From contig NW_024087259.1 in NCBI RefSeq assembly GCF_009730915.1, forward strand, positions 62,001 to 126,000: a DNA stretch of 64,000 bases, given 5' to 3'. Position numbers and translations under genes: made by a program. Origin of the DNA: Dioscorea cayenensis subsp. rotundata (taxonomy: Eukaryota; Streptophyta; Magnoliopsida; Dioscoreales; Dioscoreaceae). Of the stretch, positions 21,054 to 40,471 are shown piece after piece; position 1 is the first letter of the stretch; each line of letters opens with the position of its first letter. The notes under the pieces were generated by a model, which made no database searches, was not told the origin of the DNA, and saw only the letters and a list, made by a program, of their open reading frames with translations.

Positions 21054-24003
21054 TCACAGCTTGTCCTCGAACTCAGACAGAGGTGTCATTTGCTCCTTGA
21101 GACCCTTCCTCTTGCGAATTTCCGCCACAAGTTGTCCAGCCTGCGAACCAGCCTCCAATGGATCGGAAGACATCATGTCCCAGTGATCAAAGACGCACTG
21201 TGGGAAAGCCTGGCCAGATGTGGCAGCCCTCAGTGTGCTGGAGAAACCAAAGGACTCGATGACAGGGAGGTAGGCTTTGATGTTGTACAATGGGGTTCCG
21301 GGCCTCTGCATCTCTTCAAATACGTGGCCTCGCTTCTGGTTCAGAACACCATAGATGCCTCCAAGTGCTTGCTCAGGTGCCTGGATTTCGACAAGGTATA
21401 CAGGTTCAAGAAGTCGAGGCTTGGCAGTCAGCTGGGAAGCATAAATGACTCTTCTTGCGGTTGGAATAACCTGGCCACCACCCCTGTGGATAGCATCAGC
21501 GTGCAAGACAACATCGCACACCTCAAAGCATATGCCCCTCATGTTTTCCTCAGCAAGTGCACCTTCCTTGGAAGCCCATTGGAAGCCAGCCACCACAGAA
21601 TCCTTGATTTCATTGAGGTACTGAACTCCCTTACACATATCAACAACCATGTTTGGGCCAGTCGTCTCAGGACCGAAGCACCAGATCTTCTTGGCAAGAT
21701 CCTTGTCCCAACCAAACTCTTCAGAGAGAATCTTCGACCTAACTTTAGGATCATCCCTTGGGCCTATGCGGCCGTCATCAATTGCCTCAGCAAGCCCCTC
21801 TTCCAACGGCCTTGCTTCCATGTAGAGCCTGTTATGCTTGTTGGGGGACTTGCTCATGACTGTCCTACATGACTTTTCGAGCACAGTTTCACGGAAAGAA
21901 ACAACAGGGTCAGACACAATAATCTCAGCTCCACCCATAAAATCCTCCTGCAAGTCTTTCAAGCAGATCTCAAGATGGAGCTCTCCAGCACCTGCAACAA
22001 TATGCTCGCCAGACTCTTCCATTGTGCAAACAACCATAGGATCAGACTTGGCTAAGCGCTTCAAACCTTCAACAAGCTTGGGAAGGTCAGAAGCAACCTT
22101 GCACTGCACTGCAACACGCACAACAGGAGACACAGAGAACTTCATCGCTCTGATTGGGTGAGCATCAACCTCCTTTTCATTTGTCAATGTTGCATTTTTG
22201 GTGATATATTGATCTAAACCAACCATTGCAACAGTATTCCCACAGGGCACATCCTCCACAGACTCTTGCTTCTTACCCATCCAGATGACAGTTCTCTGGA
22301 CGCTCTTCACATACAGATCTTTCTTCTGCCCAGGTATGTAGTTAGGTCCCATGATTCTTACCTTCAGACCAGTGGAAACCTTGCCAGCAAAAACACGACC
22401 AAAGGCAAAGAACCTACCCTTATCTGATGCTGGAATCATCTTAGAAACATAGAGCATGAGAGGACCATCAGGGTCACAGTTTCTGATAGCATTGGCATAC
22501 ATGTCATCAAGAGGGCCCTCATACAAGTTCTCCACACGGTACCTTTGTGCCTTGGATGGAGATGGAAGGTGAAAGATCATCATTTCAAGAAGAGCATTGC
22601 TCGCAGGTAGCCAAGTTTGCATCACCCTCTTCATCAAAGCCTTGCCAATCAATTCTTTCTCATCAGCTTTCATGGTGACACCAAGTTTCTGCAGCATGGG
22701 CCACAACTTGTCCTTCTGATCGTTCATGCAAGTGTTGATGATCTGCTTGATTGGTTCATAACAGAACTGAACAAAGCCACGCTTGCAAGTTGAAGAACCA
22801 GTGCTCTTAGTAGTCCACTTCTTGGTTGCCGGGTCAAAGTAATTTTCACCCCATAATCTCTCCATCATCTTGTTCTCATCAACTCCAAATTTAGAAGCAT
22901 ACATTTTGGCAAAGTTCGTAAGTGTGAAGGCCCAACCGTGTAATCCAGCAGAAAAGGCAACAGTTCCTTTCTCTGGGTAAACTTGAACATCACCAAGGAG
23001 AGGATCTTCATATGTAGCCATAATGACATTAGCATTCTCAATGACACGTGAGAAAGTCTGATAGGCTTCTTCACCTTCCACCTGAAGCTCTAAGAAGCAA
23101 CGGTCCATCTTATTGACAGTCAGCACAGGCCTAATTCTTTCTCCCAGTGCCTGCCTCAGAACAGTTTCAGTTTGCACACATACACCCTCCACACAATCAA
23201 CGACAACAAGGGCACCATCAGTAATACGGAGAGCTGCAGTGACCTCAGAAGAAAAATCAACATGTCCAGGGGAATCAATAAGGTTAATGAGATACTCATT
23301 TCCATTTCTCTCCCCCTTGTAATTCTTTAAAGACTCTTCAGTCATCTCGTAGTAAAGAGAAATCCCAGTAGACTTGATTGTGATACCACGTTCTGCCTCA
23401 TCCTGACGGGTATCTGTCATCCGAACATCACCAGCAACTTCCTGTGCAATAATACCAGCAGCTGCCACAAGAGAGTCTGTAAGAGTAGATTTGCCTGCCA
23501 AAAACCAAAAAATTGCATTAGGTACAGTTAGTTTCCAGCATACAGTGTATCTTAAAGCTAATTTTATCAGAAATAGGAGTTACTCTAAAGATACAGCATG
23601 TAATAGGATACAATGGCACAATAGCAGAACCAACTTCTAGAAATGCAGTAGTATACAGAATTGAATTAACTAACTTTGGAGCAACTTGGTGCATAGATAT
23701 CATTATATGTTGAGCTCATATGGCATATAATTCAGTAAACACAGGAAAAAAAAAACTGAGCAGCAACAATGAGGATGATGTGTCAACCAGAGCTCATATT
23801 ATCATCAGAAAAATACACTAACTCAAGTCAAAGATGTCAATTGCTAAGCAGCATACACAATAAAGAATGATATTATAGCAGAGAAGAATAAAAAAATCAA
23901 AACAGGGCATACCATGATCAACATGGGCAATGACAGACATGTTACGGATGTTATGTTTAAGATCCATAATCCTCCGGAGTTCTTCAACTGTGAACTTCAC
24001 CAT
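21054..24003 (-). CDS. Eukaryotic translation elongation factor 2
   Basis: Two coding exons on the minus strand, 24003-23913 and 23494-21054, together 843 residues, the standard plant EF-2 length. The intron splits the codon for Gly31 inside the P-loop (HVDHG|KST), giving [13 protein letters not shown]. What is seen: G1 as above; switch [15 protein letters not shown], with the Thr phosphorylated in animals by eEF2 kinase; G3 DSPGHVD; G4 NKMD; and near the end [18 protein letters not shown], which contains the conserved His converted to diphthamide. Family knowledge: the GTPase that drives ribosomal translocation in the cytosol. A 5'-UTR intron and a probable 3'-UTR intron flank the CDS. The gene is intact and presumably strongly expressed. 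Confidence 0.98.
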
Positions 24004-24008
24004 CTTGG

Positions 24009-25350
24009 CTGCTTTGAAATATCAATCTAACAGCACAGAAAATAAACAACTTAGGCCTGCACAAACAAATCAAACAGCAACGTATCATTACACAATCCAT
24101 TGTAAGATATATACAATAAATGAAAAATGCACAGCAACGATTGAAGCATCTACTAAACAAAGTATGCTAAGCAGTAAGAATCAAACTTTCATTTGTTTCA
24201 AAATTAGGGTGCATTTCTGCAAAATAAGTAATTTGTATTTTAATAGCAAGATAAAATTACATCAGCAACAAATAAATGGATCAGTTTAAAAAAAAAATTG
24301 ACCTATACAATCCATGGCATTCTATACAAGATGTGAATCAAATTTTATATAATCTGCGAATTTTTTATTAAGGCCAACCAAAGAAGCACTCATATGAAAC
24401 AAAGCAGCATTAAAGTAGGGAACCAAGCACAGCCAAATAAACAAAAAAAAAAAGGAAAGACAGGAAAACGAAAGGACAACTACTACTATCAACAAGGAAT
24501 CAGGTTACACCTTTCACAAGAACATTAATCACTATCTTGTGAAGGCAAAAACTTTTTTCACCAAAATCTACCATCCATCACAAGCTTGTAGACACAAAGG
24601 CAGGGGCGATCATCTACTTATGTTGTGCTATAAAACCAGTGGAGATTGCATAGACACTCTTTAGGAATAAAACTTACGCTTGAAGAAATTCACACACAGT
24701 TCCTGCCAATTTCATAATAATTTGCATTTCCATTCTCAACCTAACACATACAATGAATTAAAACTCGCAATTGAAGTCATATCAAACAGCAACAATAAAA
24801 TCCAACAATTTCCACAGATGCGTCCAAATACTAAAAAAAAATGTAACACCCCGCATAAGATATATAATCATAAACTCAAAGGAACTCAAAATCCTTCAAT
24901 ATAAAAACTTTTTAGACAGATTTTCGCCCCCAAAAGTTAGCATAAAAGTAGAAAACCAAAATGACATCCACCAACGAAAACCAAAAACCAAAGGATTATC
25001 TACTACAACAAATCAAACACTCAAAAAATTACACAAGAAATGCCCACCCAAAAGGTAAATAACACTTGCAAATTCAGATCCACAGATCAACCCGATTTAC
25101 CGATCTTAAACTATTGTTATCCAAATAAGATCCACAACTCGAATAGCAAACTCAAATCGATCTGCAACTCGAGAATAAACCCAAAAATTCACAGATAATA
25201 TCAACATCAATCTACAACTCTCAGGCATGGCAATCAAAGAAAACAAGCAGATATCAAAGCTGATGATTATAATCCACAATAAACTACAAGAATATCAATG
25301 AATTAAATGAAATCAGAAGAAGAAACAGCATATATGGGATCGAGATTGAC
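24009..25350 (-). other. Probable 5'-UTR intron of EF-2
   Basis: On the minus strand the leader reads GCTAGGGTTTTGGGTGCATT and ends in CTTGGAG|GTCAATC (donor at 25350). An acceptor CAAAGCAG lies five bases before the ATG. The 1.34 kb between has no coding signal. Leader introns are common in highly expressed plant translation-factor genes and often raise expression. Confidence 0.65.
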
Positions 25351-25430: not shown

Positions 25431-26011
25431 GACCACCCAAAGCCTCCACTACAAACTATTCGTTCTCCCTGCGGAATCGTTAACTAACCTGATCCAATGA
25501 AATCCTTGATTGCCAACCGTCCGATAAGATTTTAGATATCCTATCGATGTTGAACACGTGTTAACTCATTTTTCCTAAATATCACTGCACTTCCCATTCG
25601 CATTTATTACTATTTATATTTAAAAGTATATAACCAAAGCTTAAAAATTAAAAAAAAAAATGGAAATTGTCAAAAAAACCCTTTAAGTTTGTAAAAATTG
25701 CAAAAACACGTTAGTTTTGCGATCACAAAATCACTCGCTTTTAAAAGCTACATATTTTTTCAAGCCTTGAAGCACTGTAGCGGATGTGAGCGGAGTGAGT
25801 TTCAAATTTTTGGGCGAAAATGCCCTTGCGTGGGGAGTCGTGGGCTGCTGATCATCTCGGCGATTTGAGAGGAAGTGGCGGTTTTCCGTAGGGGTAATCC
25901 AGAGGCAATTTATTGGGCAGTTTACTTGCTTTTTCTCGACTCGCGTCTTGACTCTTCCGTTTCGAAGGTGTCTCAAAGTTGTCTCTCGTGAGCCTCTGTA
26001 ATTAGCATTTC

Positions 26012-26616
26012 ATGACTTTTTCCTTTCCAGCAGTATCTCGAAGGAGAAGTCCCCATGTACTACTTGGCATTTCATCGGGTTTAAAATCTAAAGTATTGAG
26101 TATGGTTTTTGTTAAGCGATTACATTCAAAGAAAGATTTTTTTCGGTTTTGTTTTTGTGCTCTGTTTTTGTTGGAAGATATTGAAGTCTGCGAGGGGATT
26201 TCTCAGTGGGGTTTTGTTAGTCTGCGAGGAGATTTCTCATTTGGGGTTTTGTTTTGTTTTGCGTTTTCGTATGTATCTGCTATCGAAATAGTTTTTCGAT
26301 TATTATGATTTATGTAATATTTATAATGTACATTTCACTTTCGTTTGATATAGGTTTGCGGTTTCTGAAAGGAGGGTGGCGTTTTAGAAATGAGATATTA
26401 CTGAGTTTAAAATTTGTTGTCTCTGTTTAAAGTATTCTCGTCTCTGTTTAAAAAAATGGGTCTACTGTTTAACATTTTATATCACTTTGTTTAATAAGCG
26501 AGAGTTCTGGTTTAAAACCTTATATTTCAGCTTAAACTTTTGTCAATCTTGCGTGTTGAATGTGTTGTTATTATCGCGAGCTTGTGATTATGGCGGTCAG
26601 ACCTAGTTAATGGGCG
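26012..26616 (+). other. Leader-like region of the left Ulp1-type gene
   Basis: T/G-rich sequence with two copies of a phrase, (A/T)GTCTGCGAGGGGATTTCTCA (about 26186) and AGTCTGCGAGGAGATTTCTCA (about 26219), ending in a GTTTAA block (26400-26530). The right arm holds a recognisable counterpart around 38180-38260. It probably represents promoter, 5' UTR and first intron of the element's gene; not protein-coding as it stands. Confidence 0.4.
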
Positions 26617-28590
26617 ATGCTATTTGTGCCGGTTGTGGAGACCTTAGCTGAATTGAAAGATAACATGACCCCTAGACACTGGGAGATTATTCGAAAGACA
26701 CCGTTTGCAGCGTTCACTGAGATGGAAGCTATATACCAAGAGAGGGCCCTTCTTGATTCTCTTTTGCAAAGATACGATGGTCGCACTGATAAATTCGAGG
26801 ATCGGGGAAAGCTCTGTGAGTTTCGAGACCTCGAGATGTGGCCCTCGTTCTTGAGTCCGCGTTGCGATGGCGGCGCGAGTGGTCTTCGGAAGAAGAAAAC
26901 CGGTCGGCGTTCGAAAGGGCGGTATCTATCAAAGACCTACGAGAGGCAGAGACTCCGTCGAGAGCGCTCAGTGCGACTTGTTCGACGAGAGGGAGAAGAA
27001 TATAATTTTGTCAAACTCGATGGTGTACCTCATGGGGACGATCCTCTTCCCAAATACATCATGCTCGGTTCGAGGCTGGATCGTTGATTACGTCGATGAT
27101 CTACCCGGCCCGTGGGGCGTCTGGCGTGGGCGCGTCGCGGCCTTGCAGTGGCTTATGGAGGATATTCCACGGCGGTTTGCCCGAGTCTGAGATAGATCTG
27201 TCGGGGAAGAAAACCCGACCACGAGATGCGTTAAAGGGTTGCTCGGTCGGCTTAGCGTGCGGTTTCTGGTGGCCGGAGCAGGGGAAGAAAGTCCGTTTCG
27301 GCGAGATCCCAGGATCTTTGTGCTACGGTGAAAGTACTTCAGGAAAGCGGCGGCGGTGAAACCGACTTGTCGTCGCTCGATGTAAAGAGGTAATAAATCG
27401 TGAGACGATGTTTAACATAAGTCTTTAATGTTTAAACATTTTTATTTAGCGTTTAACTTTAGTATTCTACGGTTTAACTATTATTAAATGCTGCTTTTAA
27501 ATATTTTGTTCTCCGTTTAATTATATTCTATAACGTTTAAATATATAAACACTCTGTTTTAAATATAGTTTTTATAGTTTAAAATGAATGATTTATTTGA
27601 AATTGTTTGGTTTACATATGTTAGTTTCTTGAAAATTTTGGATTCGTGAATCTTTGAAGAAGAAATATTTGTTGAGAGCGACAGAAGCGGATGGATGCTA
27701 TTCTTTCGGGAACCGCTTGCTCGAAGAAGAGATGAGAAGGCGGCCTCTGTCGTGCAGCGTTGGGCCCTGGTTCTCCTACTTCCAGACCCACGCGGCGCAC
27801 GCGTTCCTCGGCCAGGAGGCCCTCCCCTACCGCGCGGTTTGACAACCCCCTACCCGCGACAGCGGTCCCCGATTGTGGCGTGACCCCCAGACCGTGGCGG
27901 CTCCTCCGGCCCAGTGGCGGCCCACGGTGACATTAGGCGAAGATGTCGCATGACTCTTATCTGGCGTGCGGATATTGATGGCCAAGGTTTCCTCGGCATC
28001 GCTCGTGTTGAGGCAGCTGGAAGGGCGTTCGCGGCCAGTGCGCCGTCCCTCGAACCATGTAAGGATGTTATGCGGTTGATGTTGTCGTGCAGTCGTCCCG
28101 CGTCGAAGCCGAGACACAATCCAGCAACAAGAACGACCATGTAAGGATGTATGCTGCGGTTGATCTTTGTCGCCATCGTCCCGCGTCGAAGGAAGATGAT
28201 CTTTGAAGACCCCGAAGCCAGAAGCGGCGAGAGAGATGATCGAGCCCGATAAAAAAATGGGACGGGAGCTGGCTCGGGAAAACTTTTATTCGAAGAAGAA
28301 GAAATGGGTTGGCACTGAGTCGTCTTATACATCTGACGAGGAGTTGATGAGGATCTTCCTCGACTTATCTATAGGGCCGGAGTAAGTTTAAAGTTTTTTA
28401 TGATATTGTTTAAAGGTTTTTGTTATAGTGTTTTAACTGATTTTTCTAATAGTGTTTAATGCCTTTATGTTATCATTTTACTTTTATGCTTAACGTTTAA
28501 TTATATATAATATCATGTAACGATTGATAATATCGTTTAAATATTCTGATATGAGTGCTTATTATATACATTATCGTTTAACCTCGATGA
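26400..28590 (+). repeat. GTTTAA-rich intron-like blocks, left Ulp1-type gene
   Basis: Three AT-rich blocks (about 26400-26540, 27405-27580, 28385-28590) consist of loosely spaced repeats of (T)GTTTAA(A) every 15-25 bp. The second and third begin right after plausible donors (GAG|GTAATA, GGA|GTAAGT). The motif is on the sense strand of the gene. The counterpart blocks in the right arm carry the motif on the minus strand, often as GCTTAA. Confidence 0.6.
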
Positions 28591-29255
28591 CTATCGTGTG
28601 GAGGAATGACTACTGTGAGCACCGCGCGACAAATTATACCTGATGCTTGAGGGAAGGAGATTGTCGTGTGATGATGTGATGGGCGCTTTTCGTGTCATGT
28701 ACTGAAAAGTCGTGACGAAAACCGTATCCTTACAAAGCGCCTCCGTCACCCGAGACCGCTTGCGCTTTTTATGTCAGCGAGGGCGACCTTTGCGTGAAAC
28801 AATTATGGCTATGGTCGGGGGATGTTGTCGCTTGACCTGCGTAAGTTCAAATTGTCGTCCTCCCAGAGTAATCATGAATGGCCCACTTCCATGTAGGTAA
28901 GTCACGGACGATGATAAAGCAAGAATCGTCGTTATTCTTACATGTCAGGGAGCGATAAGAAACAGCGTTGGACATGGTAAGTTCTTTAATTATGTCAGAT
29001 TAATATACATTTTGGTATTTAATCGGTATTCTAATCTCGACTTGCGTATCTCGACAGCGGAATCTATTCGACAATTGTGTCGATATGGAGTTGGCGAGTC
29101 GGCTGACAACGAAAGTACCGGCTCGTCGCGACTTGGAAACCCGCGCAAAAACAAGGGCGTCGATTGCGCGATCTCGTCATGCGGTTTATCGAGCGATTAC
29201 TTTGAGGTGAGAAGTTACGGCTACAGCGAGACGAGGCGTTCCTTACCTCGAGATT
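26617..29255 (+). pseudogene. Broken DUF1985/Ulp1-protease-like gene, left MULE copy
   Basis: Recognisable fragments in order: NMTPRHWEIIRKTPFAAFTE (26665-26724, DUF1985-like start); CRCDGG-type and KKKTG residues near 26870; LFPNTSCSVRGWIVDYVDDL (about 27047-27106); after an intron with donor GAG|GTAATAAA, a proline/arginine-rich low-complexity part; KKWVGTE..YTSDEELMRIF (about 28300-28355); MLEGRRLSCDDVMGAFRVMY (about 28643-28702); HVVV..SYMSGSDKKQRWTW (about 28885-28977, His region); and LGNPRKNKGVDCAI (29128-29172), which is the Cys-containing end of a C48 cysteine protease. The fragments fall in different frames with stops between them, so the gene is non-functional as written. Family knowledge: Ulp1-type SUMO-protease-like genes are carried by some plant MULEs. 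DUF1985 is my best match by pattern, not a database result. Confidence 0.6.
28057..28200 (+). repeat. Two-copy ~80-bp direct repeat inside the left Ulp1-type gene
   Basis: CCATGTAAGGATGT...GCGGTTGAT...CGTCCCGCGTCGAAG occurs at about 28056 and again at about 28137, about 80 bp apart. The right arm shows a related double at about 36116-36240 (ACATGGTT..TTGTTGTG..GGGATTGT), so the duplication predates the split of the two copies. Confidence 0.6.
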
Positions 29256-29688
29256 AAGGTATTTTACGCATACTCAGGAGGGAGGCGTGTAGGTGTCATA
29301 GCGAGGGGTCGATCGCGAGCGGGTTAAATTTTGTTTTGAAAGAACATGTCTTGTATATCCGAATGTCGATTTTGTTTTCAAATGTAAATCGGACAAATTC
29401 AATTCATTGTTTTTCGTGTTCGAAGGCGTGACTTGTATATCTTAATGTAAATTTTGTTTGTTTTGAATTGTAAAGCAGGTTAAATTCCATTCAGTTTCAT
29501 TTAATTGTTTAATTTACGTTCTAATTATGTACATTTCACTTTCATTGTTTAAATATACTATATACCGTTTAAACATCAGTTGAAATATTTCAAATTACAG
29601 TGTATCCGTTTAAAATAAAAATGTCTCTGTTTAAATATGGAAAGTTGCCCATCAATACACAATGTTTTCTGCATCGTCGATCGACTTA
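29256..29688. other. Junction between 3' ends of left Ulp1-type and transposase genes
   Basis: AT-rich sequence between two convergent broken genes. It includes two copies of an AATGT(A/C)(G/A)ATTTTGTTT-like phrase (about 29363 and 29444) and a plus-strand GTTTAA block (29507-29640). Probably 3' UTR material of the element's genes. Confidence 0.4.
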
Positions 29689-32338
29689 TTAACAATGCCT
29701 GAGTCGGCGACAGTTTCGTTCTAGATCGTCGGTGTGACCGGATTCATGGCGGCTAGTGCGATGTAACTTCGCGGGACGTCGAGCGCTTGCTACTCGATCC
29801 TCTTTCAGTCTAGGCCGCCCGGGCTGCCTTCTCGTCGCGAGCGGTCTCAGCGAAAGCTTCCGATTTTTAGATGCGAAAGCTGTCATCGTCGATCGGGTAT
29901 GGGGAATATAGCTTCCTTATGCGCCCGGTTTCTAATTATCGACGGTGAAGTACCGCTAATAAATCGATGTGCGTTGGTGTGCATGCGTTATTCTTTGCAT
30001 GAGCGTGTTTCTGCAAGGGATACCATAAACTTGCCACCTTCGACGTGAACAAGTTCGATGGCTAGATCCAGCGAGTTCTTTCTGTTGGTCGATCGGGTTA
30101 CGTAACGATCATCGACACGACGACCAACTACGAAGATTTGGGTTGTCCTCGACAATGATCTCTACCTTGGAATGTATGTTTGGGCGTAAGTAGGTCTCCC
30201 GTTTGTTACGCTTGCTCCGCCGGGATTTACATAACTTGTCGCGTCGACTTGAACACAGCGAAATAAGGTTAAACAAAGACAGCGATGGTTAAATAATTTG
30301 TAAACATGTTTAAACATTATTGTAAATACTTAAGCGAAAGGATTAATATTTAAAGTCAGACAAGTGTAATTAAACAAATATTGGGAATGTTTAAAGGGTA
30401 ACACTAAATGTTAAGTGTAAACCAACATTTTGCGAGACCTTATGGAGTCGACCCGTTTTCATCAGCGGTAAATGACGAGCTTCCTTGATCAAGCATTGAG
30501 CGACTCAGCGACGTTTGAATACATCTACGCTGACGATCACCTCCGAGCCGGATAATTCGACCCGATGTGCCGTATCAGGTTTATTAGTCGACCCGGTGAT
30601 GAGCTTGCGGGTGATGTGGCACTGCGATTCATTCAGCGGTATCGTCGAAATCTTTAGCCGTGGATGCCCAGCGCAATGCGGAAGCGTATAGACCCGACAC
30701 TCCTCCTCGATGCCTTCCCAAGTCGGCGTTGGCTTTCATAAAATTGGCCTCGAATGTCGAAGATAGTATGCGTGTGGCGAAGAAGGAAGACTCTACGCAA
30801 TTCGCTCGCTGAGGCCCTTGGACTCGTCCAGACCGAAGGTAATTATCTCATGATAATCTCCATCCTCAGTGTAAGGCATCGCCCTAACTTAGATATGAGA
30901 CCAAGTCGATTGGTATCGGTCTCGTTGTCGACTATACTGAAGGCGGCGTGGAAAAAACCATTGTTTCCATCTTTCCTGTGGCACTGGTGGTGTGCCCGAT
31001 ATTTTCCAAGGAGGTGGGTACCGTCGAGCATCAGTTGACACTGCAAGCCCTCTTGAATCCCATGATACTGTTGAAAGAAAGAATGCGTTTAAAAGCGATC
31101 ACCATCTCTTTCCCGCGATTACTGCTGCAAGGTTGTCTCGAGCACCTTATCCACATACCAAAGCAAGCGATCATGAGTGGAGATGTCAGCTGCCCAGTCG
31201 AGGACCACCGAGGCGTGCTCTTTTTTCCCAACCAAACTGCTTGTATGGTATGTGGACACCATGTTCCCATGACGTGTCGCTACGAATGTCGATGGCCTTG
31301 TCTGAGGGGCGGTCGCTGAGCCACAGATCACTCGTGCGCTAACCCCAGTTTTTGGTCGCTTTTCGGATGTGACGCCCTGAACCTATGCCACCACACTTAA
31401 GTGTGTGAGGTTGATTGTCTTGATTCTAAAAAGTATTTTTTTGTTATACTCTTTTTTGATCGTGAAGGCGCGAGCAACTGACCATCGGTAGCATTCCGCG
31501 ATCGCTCGATGTTTTTCGTTCTTTATGAATTTGAAGTCAAAAATTCCTTTTGATTGCATGATTTTGATACATCACTGAAATGTTCGACACCGTCAAAAGC
31601 GTTGATCGATATCGATGACAACCCTTGAGATGATCGGCGAGGAAGGAAGACATCCCAGCAGCGTCGAGGGTCGCGATGGAGATGATTGGGAGCACTCTGC
31701 AAATCTGAATTCACGCCCTGACACTTGATCGAATAGAAAGATCAATATATTAAGCGGAGAATATAATGTTTAAGTGATAATGACAATATTTAAGCGTTAA
31801 ATTAAATACTTAGCGATTAACTAATAACGTAAGCGACTAGTACAAGATGTTAACCCGATAGCGGACATATTTAAACAATAATGACCCCAGAACCAGTTGG
31901 AATAATTAAAAGAAAAGTAACTTCTGAGCGGGTAAACCTCGTTTTCATTTAGGATCGGCGATGACACATTTTTACGTCTCGACGACGAGATCAACTTCTG
32001 ACACATTTTGAAGATGGAGTGGGACGTGACACGTCCATTGAAGTCGACATCGTTTTCTATTGGGCGAACCGTTTTATATCCATTTGGTGTGATGAACTTA
32101 ACACTGATAAGAGAAACTTGAGGACCCCAGTGGCTCGCGTATCTCATTAACACCAACTCCCAGAAAGTAGAGGCAGTGAACATTGGCACTCTTCCTCCCG
32201 ATTTGAATCTAGCGATACCACGAGACTCTCCATAATATATCGTGAGAAAGCCAGATACGTGCAGACCAAATGAAATGAGAGAAGCGAAAATTCTTTATTT
32301 CGCCCGTCGTCGAAAACTCTCATAATACTTGAAATCAT
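29689..32338 (-). pseudogene. Broken MuDR-type (MULE) transposase, left copy
   Basis: Reads outward from the centre on the minus strand. Fragments in order: IARFKSGGRVPMFTASTFWE / YASHWGPQVSLISVKFITPN (32215-32075, N-terminal part inside the loop); an intron-like GTTTAA block (31850-31735); KNEKHRAIAECYRW-like sequence and RAFTIKKEYNKK..ESRQS (about 31560-31410, MuDR DNA-binding domain); LMLDGTHLLGKYR (31031-30993) and KDGNNGFFHAAFSIVDNETD (30975-30916), the core of the MULE DDE domain; a second intron-like block (30430-30240); and KNRKLSLRPLATRRQPGRPR (29871-29812) with a following His/Cys-rich knuckle remnant. Frames shift between fragments, so it cannot make a transposase. Identification as MULE is firm from the DDE core. 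Confidence 0.75.
31591..32300 (-). other. Unpaired loop of the MULE palindrome
   Basis: The only part of the 13-kb element with no inverted partner that I can find. On the minus strand it encodes the transposase N-terminus (frame 31821-32189, best-preserved frame in the element) plus a GTTTAA intron-like block. It therefore belongs to the left transposase copy, and the right copy appears to lack its N-terminal part. Confidence 0.6.
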
Positions 32339-34270
32339 GCGATCAAAGGAATTTTTGACTTCAAATTCATAAAACGAAAAACATGCCAGTATTTGTGGAA
32401 TCTTGACTGGAGTGGTTGTCGTTGGGCATTACATGCGTCAAAAGAGTATAACAAAAATACTTTCGAGAATCAAGACAATCGACAATCAGCTTGCGGTGGT
32501 GGCGTAGGTTAAGCGTCACGTCAAAGCGTCGAAAAATGGGTTAGCGCCTGCAGTGATTGGAAGCTCGAGGGCCGAAATCCCTTATGCAAGGCCGTCGACG
32601 TTCGAGAAGGGCATGTTGCGGGAACATGGTGTCCAGCATACCATACTAGCGAGCTTGGTTGGGAGAAAGAGCATGCCGGGTGATCCTCGGCGGCGATGGC
32701 ATCTCTGACTACGTTGTTTGCTTTGAGTATGTGGATAAAAGTCACTGAGAAAAATCCGGCGGCGTTGTGATGCGTGGAAAGAGGCGGTGATCGTTTTTAA
32801 GCGTGCATTCTTTTTCTTTTACGTTAGCGTGTATTGTCAGGATTGAGAGAGACTTGCGAGCGCTACTTTATTTCTCGATGGTACATGCGCCTCCTTGGAA
32901 AATATTGGGGTACACTCTTGGGTGCGAGGGAAAGATGGAAACAATAGTTTTTCGCGTCGCCTTGGGGTATAGTCGAGCGAGCGAGACCCGATGCCAATTG
33001 GACTTGGTTCGTATCTAAGTTAGGCGATGCCTTATACGAGGATGGAGATTGTCGTGAGATAATTACTGCCGTTAGTCGGACGGTCGAGGGAGCCTTGTGA
33101 GTATGATTGCGAAATCTTTCATGCTTCGCCACATGCGTACTATCTTCGACATTTGGAGCCGATTTTATGAAAAGCGATGTCGAGACTTGGGAAGGCGTTG
33201 AGGGAAGAAGTCTTGATGCATATGCTTCCGCGTTGCGTGGGCATCCACGGCTAAGATTTCGATGATACAGAGTGAATGAGCTGCGAGGCCGCATCGCACC
33301 GAAGCTCATCACTTTGGTTGATTAATACGTCGGATATGGCACGTTGGTGTGGATGCTCTGACGGGAGGGTGATCGTTGGGGTGAGATGTATTCAAGCGTC
33401 GGCGGGTCGTTCGATGCTTGGATCGAGGAAGCTCGTCGTTTCTGGGTGGCCGAAAATGGTCGACTCCGTAAGATGCTGCAGATGTTGGTTTACACTTAAC
33501 ATTTAGTGTAAGCGCTTACTAAACATTCTCGATCTTTGTTTAATTACACTTATCGACTTTAAATATTAATCCTTTCGTTTAAATATTTCTGATAATGTTT
33601 CGAAACATGTTCTGAATTATTTAACACGTATTTGTCTTTGTTTAACCTTATTTGCGAGTTGAGTTGATCGCATGTTATGTAGCCGGGCGTGAGCAAGCGA
33701 GACAAATGGAGACCTACTTATGCCCGGACATCACGATCGGTAGAGATCGTTTGTTGAGGGCGGCGAAATCTTCGTGTTGGTCGTTGTGTCGATGATCGTT
33801 CTGAAGTGATCGACCGGTCGCGGCGAGCTTCGGTGAATCTCACCATCGAACTTGTTCGTAGCCGAAGTGGAAAGTTTATGGTATCCCTTACTGAAGACAC
33901 GCTTGCGCGTGACAATGCGAGGCAGACGCAGCGGCGTGCATCGATTTATTGGCGGGTGCCACGCGTCGACAATTACTGGCGGCGTGCAAAGAGCTATATT
34001 CCCCATGCGAAGCGATGGCGAGGCCTTGCCCGGAAATCGTGAGCTTCGTTCTGCGACCGCGTGTTCGAGAAGGCGAGCTGGGCGGCCTGAGGCGAAAAGA
34101 GGATCAGTCGCCAGCGTTTTGATGTCCGATGAGTTACGTGCGGCCCGGTGTGCCATGGATCCAGTCGCGATTGGCCGATCTTGTAATAACGCGTCAGCCG
34201 CAGGCATTGTAAATAAGCCGGCGATGACATGGAAAGCATTGTGTATTGATGGGCGACTTTTCCATATTTA
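32300..34270 (+). pseudogene. Broken MuDR-type transposase, right copy
   Basis: Reads outward on the plus strand and mirrors the left copy. Fragments: EFLTSNS-like and VKRV.QKYF.ESRQS (32350-32490, DNA-binding domain); remnants of the GTHLLGKYRGTLLGA DDE start around 32880-32925; DANWTWFVSKLGDALYEDGD-like sequence (about 32985-33048); SPHAYYLRHLE (about 33125-33155); LGKALREE (about 33188-33211); WLINTSDMARW (about 33310-33345); then a GTTTAA block (33495-33660) and a SWIM-like region (33830-34060). Several frameshifts and stops. No N-terminal segment precedes 32300 on this strand. Non-functional as written. Confidence 0.68.
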
Positions 34271-34800
34271 AACTCTTACTCTTTCATGCAATTGAATGTA
34301 TTTAAGCGAGAGACGTTGTTATTTTTAAGCGGATCTAGCTGTAATTTTGAAACATTTATTGATGTGTAAATGATATATGGTATATTTAATGATAGAAGCG
34401 GAAATATACTGCGATTCTGACGTAAATTAAACAATGAAATGGCCCAGATGAGCAGCAGTGCCATATTTAAAAGCTGTTCTCATGACATATGGCATGACGT
34501 CCCCTCCTTAAGTATCACGGGTAGTAACATATGTCGAAATATTTACAAAAGAGAAACATTGTTTCTAAAAGAAACAGTGTGTGTGATGATCGACGACTTT
34601 TTCGTATTTAAACTCTTACTCTTCTGATGAATGCGTTTATTTAACAAGAAGCGGTGTTATTTTAAGCGGATACTGACTTGTAATTTGAAATATTTCAAGC
34701 GATGTTTTAAGCGAGTATATAGTATGTTTTAAACAATGAAAGTGAAATGTACATAATTAGAGCGATAAATTAAAACAATTAAATGAGCGAGATAGAATTT
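34255..34800. repeat. Local duplication specific to the right MULE arm
   Basis: CATATTTAAACTCTTACTCTT at about 34262 recurs as CGTATTTAAACTCTTACTCTT at about 34603, and the following 170 bp (GTTGTTATTTTTAAGCGGAT / GTGTTATTTTAAGCGGATA and so on) match as well. In addition, CTCCTTAAGTATCACGGGTA occurs exactly at 34504-34523 and 35004-35023. Confidence 0.65.
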
Positions 34801-35007
34801 AACACCTTTACAATTCAAAACAAACAAAATTTACGTTAAGATATACAAGTCAGTACTCTTGATCTCGAAAACGATGAATTGAATTTGTCGATTTACGTTT
34901 GAAAACAAAAGGTGACATTCGGATATACTGAGACATGTTCTTAAAACAAAATTTAACCAGCTTGTGGCGACCCCCTTTGTCGTGGACACAGTACCCTACT
35001 CCACTCC

Positions 35008-37870
35008 TTAAGTATCACGGGTAAAATACCTTAGTCCCAGGTGAGGCAGATGCATACTGCTGGTAGCGTAACTTCTCGCCTCAAAGTAATTGCTCGATAA
35101 ACCGCATGGCGTAGATTGCCTTGATCGGCTTCCTTGTTTTAGCGTGGGGTTTCCAAGTGGGTACGCGGCGGGTACTATAGTCGCCCGACTGGCGAACTCC
35201 ATGTCGGCACAATTGTCAGAATGGAGATTCCGTTAGTCGAGATATGCTGAGTCGAGATTAGAATCTCGATTAAATACCAAGCAGATATCGGGATCGGACA
35301 TAATTAAGAACTTACCATGTCCAGCAGATTCTTATCGTTCCCGGACGCGAAGAATAATGCATGTATTCTTGTTTATCATTGTCCGGGACGACGATATAAG
35401 TGGCCGATTCGCTGATTATCGGGAGGATAACATTTGAACCATGCGGGGTTGCGCTGACATCCCCGACCATAGCCGCGCTAATTGTTTCGTAATGGTCGTC
35501 ACCTTTGTCGTATAAAGCTGATGGGCAGGCGCTTCTTGCGCTTAAGGATATGGCTCTTTGCTCGGTGACTTTTGTAGTATGCATCCGAGCAGTCCATCAT
35601 CGTCATGGTGACAATCTCCTTCTCCGCAGCGTGTGTATAATTTATCGCTGTGGTGCTTTCGCGGTCGTGTTCCTCCATGCGGCGATCTTTGAGGTTAGCG
35701 ATACGAGATATAATAAGACCATATTGTAAATATTTAAATGATATTATCAATTGTTTACATGATATTATATATAATTAAGCGTTAAGCGGACAAAGTAAAT
35801 GATAACATAAAAGGCATTAACAGCGCTATTAGAAAATGCGTTAAACACTATAACAAAACCTTTTAAACAATATCATAAAAACTTTAAACTTACCGTCCGT
35901 ACGAGCGAGTTGAGGAAGATCCTCATCGACTCACCTGCGTGTTGTTAAAGGCGACTCGGGCGACCCATTTCTTCTTCTTGGAATAAAGAGTCCGGAAAAT
36001 ACAGTCCCATTTTTATTGGCCTTGATCATCTCTCGTTGACTCGGTCGGGGTACTTGACGTCATCTTCCTTGATCACGGGGGACGATGGCGGCGACATCAT
36101 GCGAGAACACGTCCTTACATGGTTGTTCTTGTTGTGGGATTGTGCATCAGCCGACGTCTTGAGGGGCCAGCGACAACATCAGCAGCATAAACAAAATCAC
36201 TTACATGGTTTCTTGTTGTGGTGGGATTGTCTGCTGAGATGCAATGCTTGTCGGCCGCGCGCGGATGTGTGACAAACTTGGGAGCCAAACCTTCCAGATG
36301 ATGTCGTCATGTCAAATTGACGCCTCGTTCGTCGGTGCCCGGTTATGATTCTTTAGAGGATGGCGCGGTTGGTTGTGAAACGTCCTTGCAGTGCCTCGGC
36401 CACGCTGACAAGCGAAACTCGGACATCAATATGTCGGCATACTGCGTAAGAGTTGCGGTGACACTTCCGCAATGTCGGCGGTGGATATTGCGGTCGGAGA
36501 GGGCTGCCATGGTCGAGGCTGCCGCAATCGGGGCCTGTCGTTGTCGTGGTAGGGGGTTGTTACAATCTGTAGGGGAGGGCTTCTGCGGCGTCGAGGAATC
36601 AGATGCGGCGTGGTGAAATTTTGGAAGTAGGAAGCAGGCGTCAGCCAGCAGCGATGAAAGCTGCCTCTCGTTTCTTCTTTGACCCAGTGGTTCGGGAGGG
36701 CAGCATCCATCAGTGGGTTTGCCCCAACAAATATTTTCTTCTTGACGTTAGCGAACATTCGAGAAACTAACATATGTAAAACGAACAATTTAGGTAGAAA
36801 TCGTTCATTTTAAACACTATAAAACTATATTTAAGCAGGTGTTTATATATTTAAGCGTTATAGAATATAAATTAAGCGGAGAACAAAATATTTTAAACCC
36901 GGTATGAATAATAGTTAAGCGGTAAAATACTAAAGTTAAGCGCTAAATAAAATGTTTTAAACATTAAGACTTATGTTAAACATTGTCGTGATTTATTACC
37001 TCTACATCGACGATGACAAAGTGGTTTCTACCATTTGTAGACTATAGTATCTTCCTTGTAGCGACGGCGTCGCGGGATCTTCTTGAAGCGGACTGCTTCC
37101 CGTTCAGGTCATTTCGTAAACCCGCGTTAAGCCGCGGCCAGAGCAACCCCTTAATGTACCACGTGTTGAGTGCTTCTTCTCGCGCATCTATCGTGCGCTC
37201 GGCGCTGTGGAATATCCTCCAGCCCAAAGCCCCGTTTGCGTCGCTGCGCCCAGTGCATATCGCCCGTGGTGGTAGATGCTCGACGTAATCAGCGATCCGG
37301 TTCGGAATCGAGCGTAGCGTATTTGGGAAGAGGGCTATGCCCGCGAGGTGCAGCATCGGGGAGTTTGACAAGAAATTATCTTTTCTCTACATGGCCGAAC
37401 AAGTTGCGCTGTAGGGTGCTCTGGGTGGGCGTCTGCAGCCAACTGTCTCGTGGGTTTTGATGATACGCTCGCGCCGAGCCGGCGGCCAGGGTTTTCTTCG
37501 TACGAAGACCGCTGTGACGCAGCCGTCGCCCAGCCTATGGACCCGAGCAGGCCACATCTTGAGTGCAGCGTCTTGCGGTCACAGCTTCGTGACTTCCCGA
37601 TCGACGGGTTGTTGAATGCGAGCCGGTCGATGCCTTTGCAAAAGAAGAATCAGAAAGCTACTGCTTGGTATATAGCTTCCGGCTTAGTGAGCAGCGCAAA
37701 GCGGTGTCCGGAGTCGAACTAATCTCCCGGTCAATAGAGTACGTATTGTATCGATTGACTAAAGTGTCATTCTGGGGTGTCATCGAGAATGAGCGTCGCC
37801 CGTTAACTCAACTAGGTGCGACGCCCGTAATCACCGACTGCGGCGATGACGACACATTCGACATGCGGTA
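35008..37870 (-). pseudogene. Broken DUF1985/Ulp1-protease-like gene, right MULE copy
   Basis: Minus-strand counterpart of the left Ulp1-type remnant. Fragments in order: LFPNT.RSIPNRIADYVEHL (about 37334-37275); intron donor GAG|GTAATAAATC (37000); a long low-complexity exon; donor GTAAGTTTAAAG (35894); DNDKQEYMHYSSRPGTIRIC (about 35375-35316, the C48 His/Asp region); donor CATG|GTAAGTTC (35317); and YPLGNPTLKQGS / CGLSSNYFEARSY (35160-35060), where the sequence equivalent to GVDCAI has lost its Cys reading frame. Many stops and shifts. Shared splice-site positions with the left copy show that both derive from one gene. Confidence 0.58.
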
Positions 37871-38726
37871 TTCACAAAAGTTTAAGCGGCGCCAAATTTA
37901 AGGTTTTAAGCAGTAGCCATCACCGGTTGATTAAGCGAGAACCGCCGAATGTTAAGCAGGCCGGTTTATTAAGCGAGCGAGAATAGCTAGCAGCGGCTTG
38001 ACAAAACTTAAGCGTCAAACGTCTCGACTTTCCCAGCGATCGTACTCGTTTGTAAAAGCTGCCGGTATGCTCGAATGAAAGAGAGTATGCATTATAAATA
38101 TTACGCGGAGTACAGCATGCGATCGGAAAAAGCTTTTTCGATGGTGTATCTGGGGCAATGCTGAAAACAAAAACAAAACCCTAGCGCAAATCTCGTGGGA
38201 CTAACAAAACCCGAGTAGAAATCCCCTGCGAGCACTTGATGTCTTCCGACAAAAGCGAGGAGCTGGCAAAAGCAAGCCCAGAAAAATGCTCTCTTGTGGC
38301 GAGCAGGTTAGCAGTAAAAGCATACTCGTGCATGGAGATTGCAAGCGATGGTACGACATGCGATCTAGCTGCGGTGGACCTCTCCTTTGAGATAGTCTGG
38401 AGTGGGAAAAGAAAAAGGCTCGCGAATCTGGTGTGGCGGTGAGACAACTCAGACACGCCCGAGGAGTGGAAGAGTGAGCGAGCGAGAGCGAGTGGCGGCT
38501 CGATGAGTCGTCTCGTTACTCTGACAGCGCCCCTCTCAGAAATGTCGTCGGATAATCTGAGCGCGATCACGCGTTTTGTCCGCAAAATTTTGACTCAGCT
38601 CGGTTCATCAATTCAGGGGTTTGGGGTTTTGAAAAAGCATAGAGTTTAAAAGGAGAGTTTTTAGGGATTATATAGCAGGTGTTTTTAGCGATTTTACTGG
38701 CTTAAAGGGTTTTTTTGACAATTTTC

Positions 38727-39457
38727 ACTTATTATATTATTATATACTCATATTATGAATTAGCAAAAGATGCTATACGTAAATCAAATATTTCTGCTGA
38801 AAGGGAAAAATAAAAATAAAAATTTAAAGTTAATCTTTCTCGTAGCATTTTAAATTAACTTCAACCAAAAATGTAAATAAGGTATTAAAGTTATTTCATG
38901 GGGATATAAATAAATATAATTATAGAAATTCTTATTATTAAAACTGATTTTTTTATATAAATGTGAACTAGTTACATTGAGAGGAAATTAAATGTTCAAC
39001 ATTTATTTATTTAAGAGAAAAATGAGTACTTAAAAATTATGATAAAACTTTTTTTTTTTGCTAAAATTAATACAATATTTATAATTCAATATTTAATGGC
39101 AATAAATTAGTAATGACAAATGAATGAACACCAACTTTCTTGTTATTGGAGTGATTTATTATTTTTTCTATTTATTTGACAATTTTTCATATACCATTAA
39201 AAAAAAAGATATTATTAGCTTGAGAAAATTAAAAAGAATCAAACCCGGCAAGTGACAAAAACAATATTAACATCTTCACTTTTTTTTTTTTTGGTTAAAA
39301 AAACAAGGGAGTACAAATGAATTTCAACACTTAAAAAGGGCCCATACGTAAAAAACTTCCAAGGGGTTAAACAAGGGACTAAATTGCAAGTTTACACATT
39401 TGTTTGCTAGTGAAAAACAGAAATATTACCGATGTGCCACTGGCTGTCTTTCAGCTG
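38727..39457. other. Upstream region of the dehydrogenase-like gene
   Basis: About 730 bp of AT-rich host-like DNA between the right MULE end and the start codon. It must contain the promoter unless transcription starts inside the MULE. No clear TATA box. Nothing else seen. Confidence 0.55.
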
Positions 39458-40471
39458 ATGCTTTCTCGCTTTCATCGCATCCTTCGTCCTCTTCGGCGAT
39501 CCCAGCTCGTCTTCCCGCTCGACCGCCGCCTCTCCATGGCGCCGACATCGCCGGAGACTCGACCCATATCGCCGGAGACCACTCGCATCGGCTGGATCGG
39601 CACCGGAGTCATGGGCCGCGCCATGGCTGGGCATCTCATCTCCGCCGGCTACTCCCTCACCGTCTTCAATCGAACTCCATCGAAGGCCAAGACCCTCATA
39701 GATCTCGGAGCCCGATACGCTGAATCTCCTCTTGCCGTCGCCCAGGCCTCCGACGTCCTCTTCCTCATCGTCGGTTACCCCTCCGACGTCCGCCTTGTCG
39801 GGTTCCAAGCCCTCCCTGGCCTCTCGCCTGGATCCGTCCTCGTTGATATGACCACCAGTGACCCGTCCCTTGCCGCAGAGCTCTCCTCGGCTGCCATCGC
39901 CGCCTCCTGCCAGTCTATAGACGCACCTGTGTCTGGCGGTGACCGTGGTGCTCGGTCTGCATCCCTCTCCATATTCGCTGGCGGCGATGCGTCCACCGTC
40001 GAGCGTCTTAAGCCCCTTTTTGGATGTATGGGGACGGTGAGGTACATGGGGGCCGCGGGGGCGGGGCAGAGAGCGAAGCTGGGGAACCAGATAGCAATAG
40101 CGTCGACGATGGTGGGGCTGGTGGAGGGGATGGTGTACGCGCACAAGGTGGGGCTTGATGTGGAGAGGTGGATGGAGGCGATATCCACCGGCGCCGCAGG
40201 GTCGAAGTCGCTGGAACTCTATGGGAAGAGGATCCTGGACAGGGATTTTGAGGCTGGGTTCTATGTGCATCACTTCGTGAAGGATTTGGGGATTTGTTTG
40301 AAGGAATGCGAGACCTTGGGACTGTCGTTGCCGGGGCTGGCACTGGCTCAGCAGCTCTATGTTTCGCTTGTGGCTCATGGGGAAGGAGGGCTAGGGACAC
40401 AAGCGCTGGCATTGGCGATTGAAAGGCTTAACAATACCTGCTTGAAGGGAGGCTCCTCTGGGTCTGGTTGA
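39458..40471 (+). CDS. 3-hydroxyisobutyrate dehydrogenase-like protein, probably mitochondrial
   Basis: A single uninterrupted frame; with the ATG at 39458 it has 337 residues. An earlier in-frame ATG (39404) would add 18 residues with no targeting character, whereas MLSRFHRILRPLRRSQLVFP is a good Arg-rich, acid-poor mitochondrial presequence; Met27 could start a shorter form. What is seen: Rossmann GWIGTGVMGRAMAGHL (about 45-60), DAPVSGGDRGA substrate-binding signature, and GQRAKLGNQ with the catalytic Lys. Family knowledge: beta-hydroxyacid dehydrogenases (HIBADH, glyoxylate/succinic-semialdehyde reductases) oxidise or reduce small hydroxyacids with NAD(P); this sequence resembles the plant HIBADH-like 1 group, whose substrate is not firmly known. 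The gene is GC-rich, producing long shadow frames on the other strand. Confidence 0.88.
   Translation: MLSRFHRILRPLRRSQLVFPLDRRLSMAPTSPETRPISPETTRIGWIGTGVMGRAMAGHLISAGYSLTVFNRTPSKAKTLIDLGARYAESPLAVAQASDVLFLIVGYPSDVRLVGFQALPGLSPGSVLVDMTTSDPSLAAELSSAAIAASCQSIDAPVSGGDRGARSASLSIFAGGDASTVERLKPLFGCMGTVRYMGAAGAGQRAKLGNQIAIASTMVGLVEGMVYAHKVGLDVERWMEAISTGAAGSKSLELYGKRILDRDFEAGFYVHHFVKDLGICLKECETLGLSLPGLALAQQLYVSLVAHGEGGLGTQALALAIERLNNTCLKGGSSGSG

Follow-up and report, generated by a model that had tools for sequence, protein, structure and literature searches.

The mirrored locus at 25661–38728 of the 64-kb window (the whole stretch of DNA analysed) consists of two truncated MULE copies of different subfamilies, which carry broken genes, meet at a direct junction and have no target-site duplication in common. 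The two copies were most probably inserted independently, in opposite orientation, and fused by a later deletion. The arrangement is visually striking, and its origin is most likely ordinary decay; a palindrome-like gene arrangement of this kind can come from two ordinary decayed insertions and has little importance beyond annotation. The parts of the locus are as follows.

25661..32297, plus strand: left arm; a MULE copy truncated on its transposase side, with the outer end, next to DUF1985, at 25661.
32291..32304, no strand: junction; left-arm homology stops and right-arm homology starts within ~10 bp.
32298..38728, minus strand: right arm; a MULE copy from another subfamily, likewise truncated on its transposase side, with the outer end at 38728.

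Mirrored arms and gene remnants

A mirror structure had been placed at 25662..38726 in the initial annotation. It is real: the arms align collinearly in inverted orientation when the window is compared with itself, and the outer coordinates were right to within 2 bp (25661 and 38728). Self-blastn of the whole 64-kb window gives seven collinear inverted blocks between the arms, from 25664/38724 inward to 31564/32332, with 74–87% identity.

Block 1, 25664–25709 / 38679–38724: 87% identity.
Block 2, 26166–26260 / 38164–38254: 79% identity.
Block 3, 26697–26771 / 37634–37708: 81% identity.
Block 4, 26993–27105 / 37271–37387: 76% identity.
Block 5, 27355–27633 / 36758–37032: 85% identity.
Block 6, 28053–29618 / 34657–36210: 76.5% identity, E printed as 0.
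Block 7, 29629–31564 / 32332–34273: 74% identity, E printed as 0.

Many short inverted pairs, in the same order as the blastn blocks, are recovered by a separate repeat search of the window, and the match between the mirrored arms far exceeds chance. Aligned over their full length, the arms are more diverged than these blocks imply, with an identity of 71% in the transposase region, 74% on the Ulp1 side and only 64% across the outermost 2.4 kb. The arms are indeed mirrored, but the centre assigned to them at 31.6–32.3 kb is no symmetric spacer; this stretch is 0.7 kb of the left-arm transposase 5' region that is absent from the right arm.

Gene remnants were placed in the arms by tblastn with proteins of better-kept copies of the family (A4 and A6).

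26560..27367, plus strand: DUF1985 remnant, left arm; tblastn with the 286-aa ORF of A4, E 4e-54 and 7e-30; 3 and 6 stops; two frames.
28497..28997, plus strand: Ulp1-like remnant, left arm; tblastn with the Ulp1-like ORF of A4, E 2e-11 and 9e-7; 6 and 9 stops.
29703..32291, minus strand: transposase remnant, left arm; tblastn with the transposase ORFs of A6; broken by stops.
32333..34171, plus strand: transposase remnant, right arm; tblastn; starts inside the DNA-binding domain; broken by stops.
35339..35743, minus strand: Ulp1-like remnant, right arm; tblastn, E 2e-24; 3 stops.
37046..37710, minus strand: DUF1985 remnant, right arm; tblastn, E 1e-9 and 1e-5; 3 stops each.

Both genes had been described as present twice in opposite orientation. 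Both are found in both arms (24 tblastn matches), but internal stops occur in 19 of the 24, and the genes survive only as broken remnants. The N-terminal PB1-like transposase exon is kept in the left arm, at 31938–32291. In three frames of the transposase strand of each arm, Pfam detects PF03108 only, below the cut-off of 25 bits: 12.8 bits (E 0.099) in the left arm; 15.9 bits (E 0.011), from profile position 22, in the right. Three frames of each arm on the strand of the DUF1985/Ulp1 gene give no Pfam match, and among 10 ORFs of the window no Pfam family passes its cut-off.

The MULE family

In the genome of the window (584 Mb, 2249 contigs), pieces matching the left arm number at least 58 and those matching the right arm at least 84, window included; among the 25 candidates scored per arm, the two sets share only the window itself. 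Ten left-arm relatives (A1–A10) were fetched with flanks. All ten align with the left arm from 25604–25661 to 32278–32291, and most continue with shared sequence beyond the end of the window arm. A genome search for the single-copy MULE, proposed in the initial annotation, finds multi-copy relatives with both ends; the element is 8.9–9.4 kb long in the eight copies with both ends placed, the far end not being recognised in A4 and A7. The element ends are GTGGAAATTGCC... and ...AGTAATTTTCCC, with variants. The proposal that almost the whole locus is one giant terminal inverted repeat is rejected, because elements with two ends of their own occur singly, and a mirrored second arm follows in none of the ten relatives fetched with flanks.

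Flanks of 9 bp match at 9/9 positions in six of the eight copies with both ends (A1, A2, A6, A8, A9 and A10), with ends chosen by eye and small shifts permitted. TAA repeats surround A1 and A10, and runs of A or T surround A2 and A8; the convincing cases are A6 and A9. No target-site duplication is seen in the remaining two of the eight, A3 and A5. The family has the ~9-bp target-site duplication of MULEs, for which 8–11 bp is accepted (PMC3903597). Blastn of each of the 10 copies against itself (A4 and A7 without recognised far end) finds no inverted pair at the element ends. The family is therefore of the non-TIR kind of MULE; the ends share only a short imperfect motif, and the long TIRs of TIR-MULEs are absent. 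Non-TIR MULEs are known (PMC2528002).

The transposase is of MuDR type, with DNA-binding, MULE and SWIM domains in the ORFs of A6 (PF03108, 4e-23; PF10551, 3e-19; PF04434 (SWIM), 2e-10; PB1 below cut-off), and homologous remnants lie in both window arms. The A6 transposase ORFs and the outer gene occupy opposite strands and converge. The outer gene encodes a DUF1985 protein: A4 scores 38.7 bits against the PF09331 cut-off of 35.1, and its 286-aa ORF spans the PF09331 match at C18:4395108-4395473. Three of the 150 listed PF09331 matches fall within left-arm relatives (C18:4395108, C19:16336421 and C19:18807456), all over the cut-off. Part of an A4 ORF matches PF02902 weakly (18.7 bits, short of the curated 20.7; E 0.0016), and the 47 PF02902 matches in the genome all fall outside the listed left- and right-arm copies. 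A Ulp1-like part is probably carried beside DUF1985. Of the earlier description as a MULE with a transposase and a Ulp1-like gene, the MuDR-type transposase stands, together with a DUF1985 gene; the Ulp1-like part is weak. Pfam finds no match in copy A1 (six whole frames) or in locus L023 (one plus-strand frame).

The junction and the origin of the pair

Relatives of the left arm are alignable to ~32279–32304 and those of the right arm to ~32298. The copies therefore adjoin each other and leave no space for host DNA. Compared with copy A6, the left arm is without ~2.3 kb of the transposase-side end, relatives with both ends continuing for ~2.3 kb, and the right arm is without ~3.0 kb. Two elements fused at their transposase 5' ends had been one of the origins suggested, and this is borne out: the arms are truncated copies abutting directly. 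In a genome search with 31900–32700, the junction is contiguous (both halves, one orientation) nowhere else among 40 scored candidates, window included.

In the history that we favour, two DUF1985-carrying (probably Ulp1-carrying) plant MULEs of two subfamilies would have inserted independently between two divergently transcribed genes, in opposite orientation and with their transposase 5' ends facing. A later deletion would have removed at least ~5.3 kb, with 2.3 kb taken from the left copy and 3.0 kb from the right, along with whatever lay between; most simply, a double-strand break in or between the copies was repaired by end joining. This would have fused the copies directly into a dead relic. 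We infer the order of events, the end joining and the independence of the insertions (rather than insertion of one copy next to or into the other).

The junction joins two non-homologous element positions ~700 bp apart with no clear filler, which would also suit an inversion or translocation breakpoint, at which breaks in two distant MULE copies were rejoined and the other two halves joined elsewhere. A model of that reciprocal junction is contiguous (both halves, one orientation) nowhere among 40 scored candidates, a weak objection that covers the best candidates only, and we regard a breakpoint as unlikely. A misjoin of two different copies in a small contig (C864, 134 kb, in an assembly of 2249 contigs) appears very unlikely: the window has no Ns, the break is outside the sequence common to both sides, and the arms would be too diverged for easy collapse.

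Relationship of the arms

Comparison of each arm with other family copies separates two fused decayed insertions from a true inverted duplication. The alignment of the transposase region contains 20 rows (the two arms, the 10 fetched copies, locus L002 and seven right-arm best hits) and 2171 columns, 1951 of which were kept for the tree. The two arms are the least alike pair in the table (71.3% identity); against the remaining 18 rows, the left arm reaches 76.9–85.8% and the right arm 73.0–82.6%. In the tree the right arm falls with its own seven best hits (support 100/100) and the left arm with L002 (92/81) and A1 (91/96). With the arms forced as sisters, the likelihood is 132.5 lnL worse (p-AU 1e-9).

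For the Ulp1 side (19 rows), rejection of a sister pairing is only marginal (p-AU 0.042). In likeness to the left arm, L015 ties here with the right arm and L016 falls below it; L016 is also the row least like the right arm, and each arm resembles the other arm more than it resembles L016. Across the outermost 2.4 kb (15 rows) arm-to-arm identity is 64.2%, the lowest value for either arm, and sisterhood is rejected, with a printed p of 3e-141 that is not credible as a number. Taking the best hits of each arm as relatives biases the sampling towards two clusters. The right arm forms a long branch (0.53 in the outer region) and has an unusual base composition.

By these comparisons the arms are separate copies from two subfamilies and not an inverted duplication of one element. 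Such a duplication, at a break or replication fork, was the other origin suggested in the initial annotation, and collinear mirrored arms of similar length would fit it; however, hardly any two of the copies compared are less similar than the arms, which in the transposase region are less alike than either is to the other 18 copies, and their sister relationship is rejected in all three regions, marginally in one. On the copies sampled an inverted duplication appears refuted, and we attach hardly any probability to it.

Flanks, neighbouring genes and possible function

25652..25660, no strand: left outer flank, nine A; perhaps one half of a target-site duplication belonging to the left copy alone.
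38729..38737, no strand: right outer flank, TTATTATAT.

The target-site duplication found in the family is absent from the composite as a unit: the left and right flanks match at 4/9 positions at best, shifts allowed, so there is no sign that the pair arrived as one insertion. The pair is a dead relic, not mobile as a unit. No empty site was found in this genome; the left flank matches elsewhere only within the first 826 of its 2461 bases (gene side), and the right flank occurs once, matching only itself.

The left neighbour is an elongation-factor-2-like (EF2-like) gene on the minus strand, with its main open frame at 21054–23579 (Pfam). A putative first exon, with the ATG at 24003, is assigned by likeness to EF2 N-termini, Pfam giving nothing for that exon. 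On the right, the plus strand carries a 3-hydroxyisobutyrate-dehydrogenase-like gene (open frame 39383–40471; first ATGs at 39458 and 39536). The two genes are divergent and both point away from the arms; read-through from them, such as has been proposed for Mu killer, is therefore not expected to enter the arms.

A working composite, that is, a mobile double element or a Mu-killer-like silencing hairpin, would be compatible with any origin. Both outer termini are the same kind of end, but both transposase-side ends are lost, no target-site duplication is common to the flanks and the junction recurs nowhere among the 40 scored candidates. Perfect complementary runs between the arms comprise eight of at least 21 nt, six of at least 24 and one of at least 30, with none of 40; against a silencing hairpin, the arms are diverged and neither neighbour gene points towards them. 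A working composite of either kind is highly improbable. On the sequence, a hairpin between the arms would be possible but poor, and a Muk-like silencing role seems unlikely. It is extremely improbable that transcription across its centre makes, or once made, the fused pair a natural hairpin silencing two MULE subfamilies at once; if it did, each hairpin arm would contribute its own subfamily's sequence to silencing.

Comparison with known elements

ULP-carrying MULEs include Arabidopsis KAONASHI/KI-MULE, with relatives in melon, rice and grapevine (PMC2528002). Like KI-MULE, the present family combines a MuDR-type transposase with a probable Ulp1-like part reversed to the transposase and has no long TIRs (PMC2528002). 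Unlike the ULP-carrying MULEs, it has a DUF1985 part and a Ulp1 match below cut-off, and its copies in the window are truncated and joined together.

Mu killer (Muk) of maize is a partial inverted duplication, both TIRs of which are from the mudrA-adjacent end (PMC3440606). The window locus resembles Muk in that each has two partial MULE copies whose transposase parts are inverted relative to each other (PMC3440606). It differs in that it keeps the opposite, DUF1985-side ends, in that its arms are two diverged copies, and in that any silencing by it would be hypothetical; an origin of its arms by inverted duplication of one element, as in Muk, is contradicted by the AU tests, one of three being marginal.

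In maize and rice, coding MULEs are often found as copies disrupted by insertions and indels (PMC3903597). The decayed or nested MULEs in the available text of that source are insertions into MULEs and not tail-to-tail fusions, unlike the window locus (PMC3903597). Duplicated TIRs, recombination and nested insertion are discussed for MULEs, with no fusion of this kind, in the available text of PMC3310237. Among the papers listed on inverted or fused MULEs, or on central deletions of inverted repeats, titles and abstract openings mention no tail-to-tail MULE fusion, which is no proof of absence.

Copies of the present family also lie close together elsewhere, in two of the ten fetched stretches (A2 and A10). 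The neighbour of A2 is an apparent 2.5-kb derivative in direct orientation; that of A10 is a rearranged piece with its own inverted junction.

Rearranged and short pieces of the MULE family

Pieces related to the MULE family are found in the fetched stretches (L) beside two relatives of the left arm, copies A10 and A2:
L036:3778-6517 (contig C20; 485-3224 in the joined, reversed stretch), rearranged piece beside A10
L020:3903-6417 (contig C8; 585-3099 in the joined, reversed stretch), apparent 2.5-kb derivative beside A2

The piece beside A10, about 1 kb from the nearly full copy, has a tight inverted junction near 2615/2620, which suggests that inverted junctions are recurrent in the family. 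The apparent derivative beside A2 contains sequence resembling both family ends; it lies 1 kb from the full-length copy, in identical orientation.

A few hundred bases are absent from both window arms at about the same place (28030-28054, adjoining a short direct repeat, in the left arm; 36259-36289 in the right arm); relative to copy A6, roughly 450 bp and 300 bp are missing, respectively. The shared position perhaps marks a deletion hot spot.

Related sequences elsewhere in the genome

DUF1985 matches are common, with at least 150 places among the profile matches listed; in at least 10 of these 150, a Peptidase_C48 match is located approximately 1.4-2.9 kb away. These matches point to DUF1985-Ulp1 genes or elements as a large set. 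Partial relatives of the EF2-like gene's start (window 23200-24025) lie on contigs C20, C5, and C278 (88%, 83%, and 83% identity, respectively, over the first 300 bases searched), perhaps duplicated genes.
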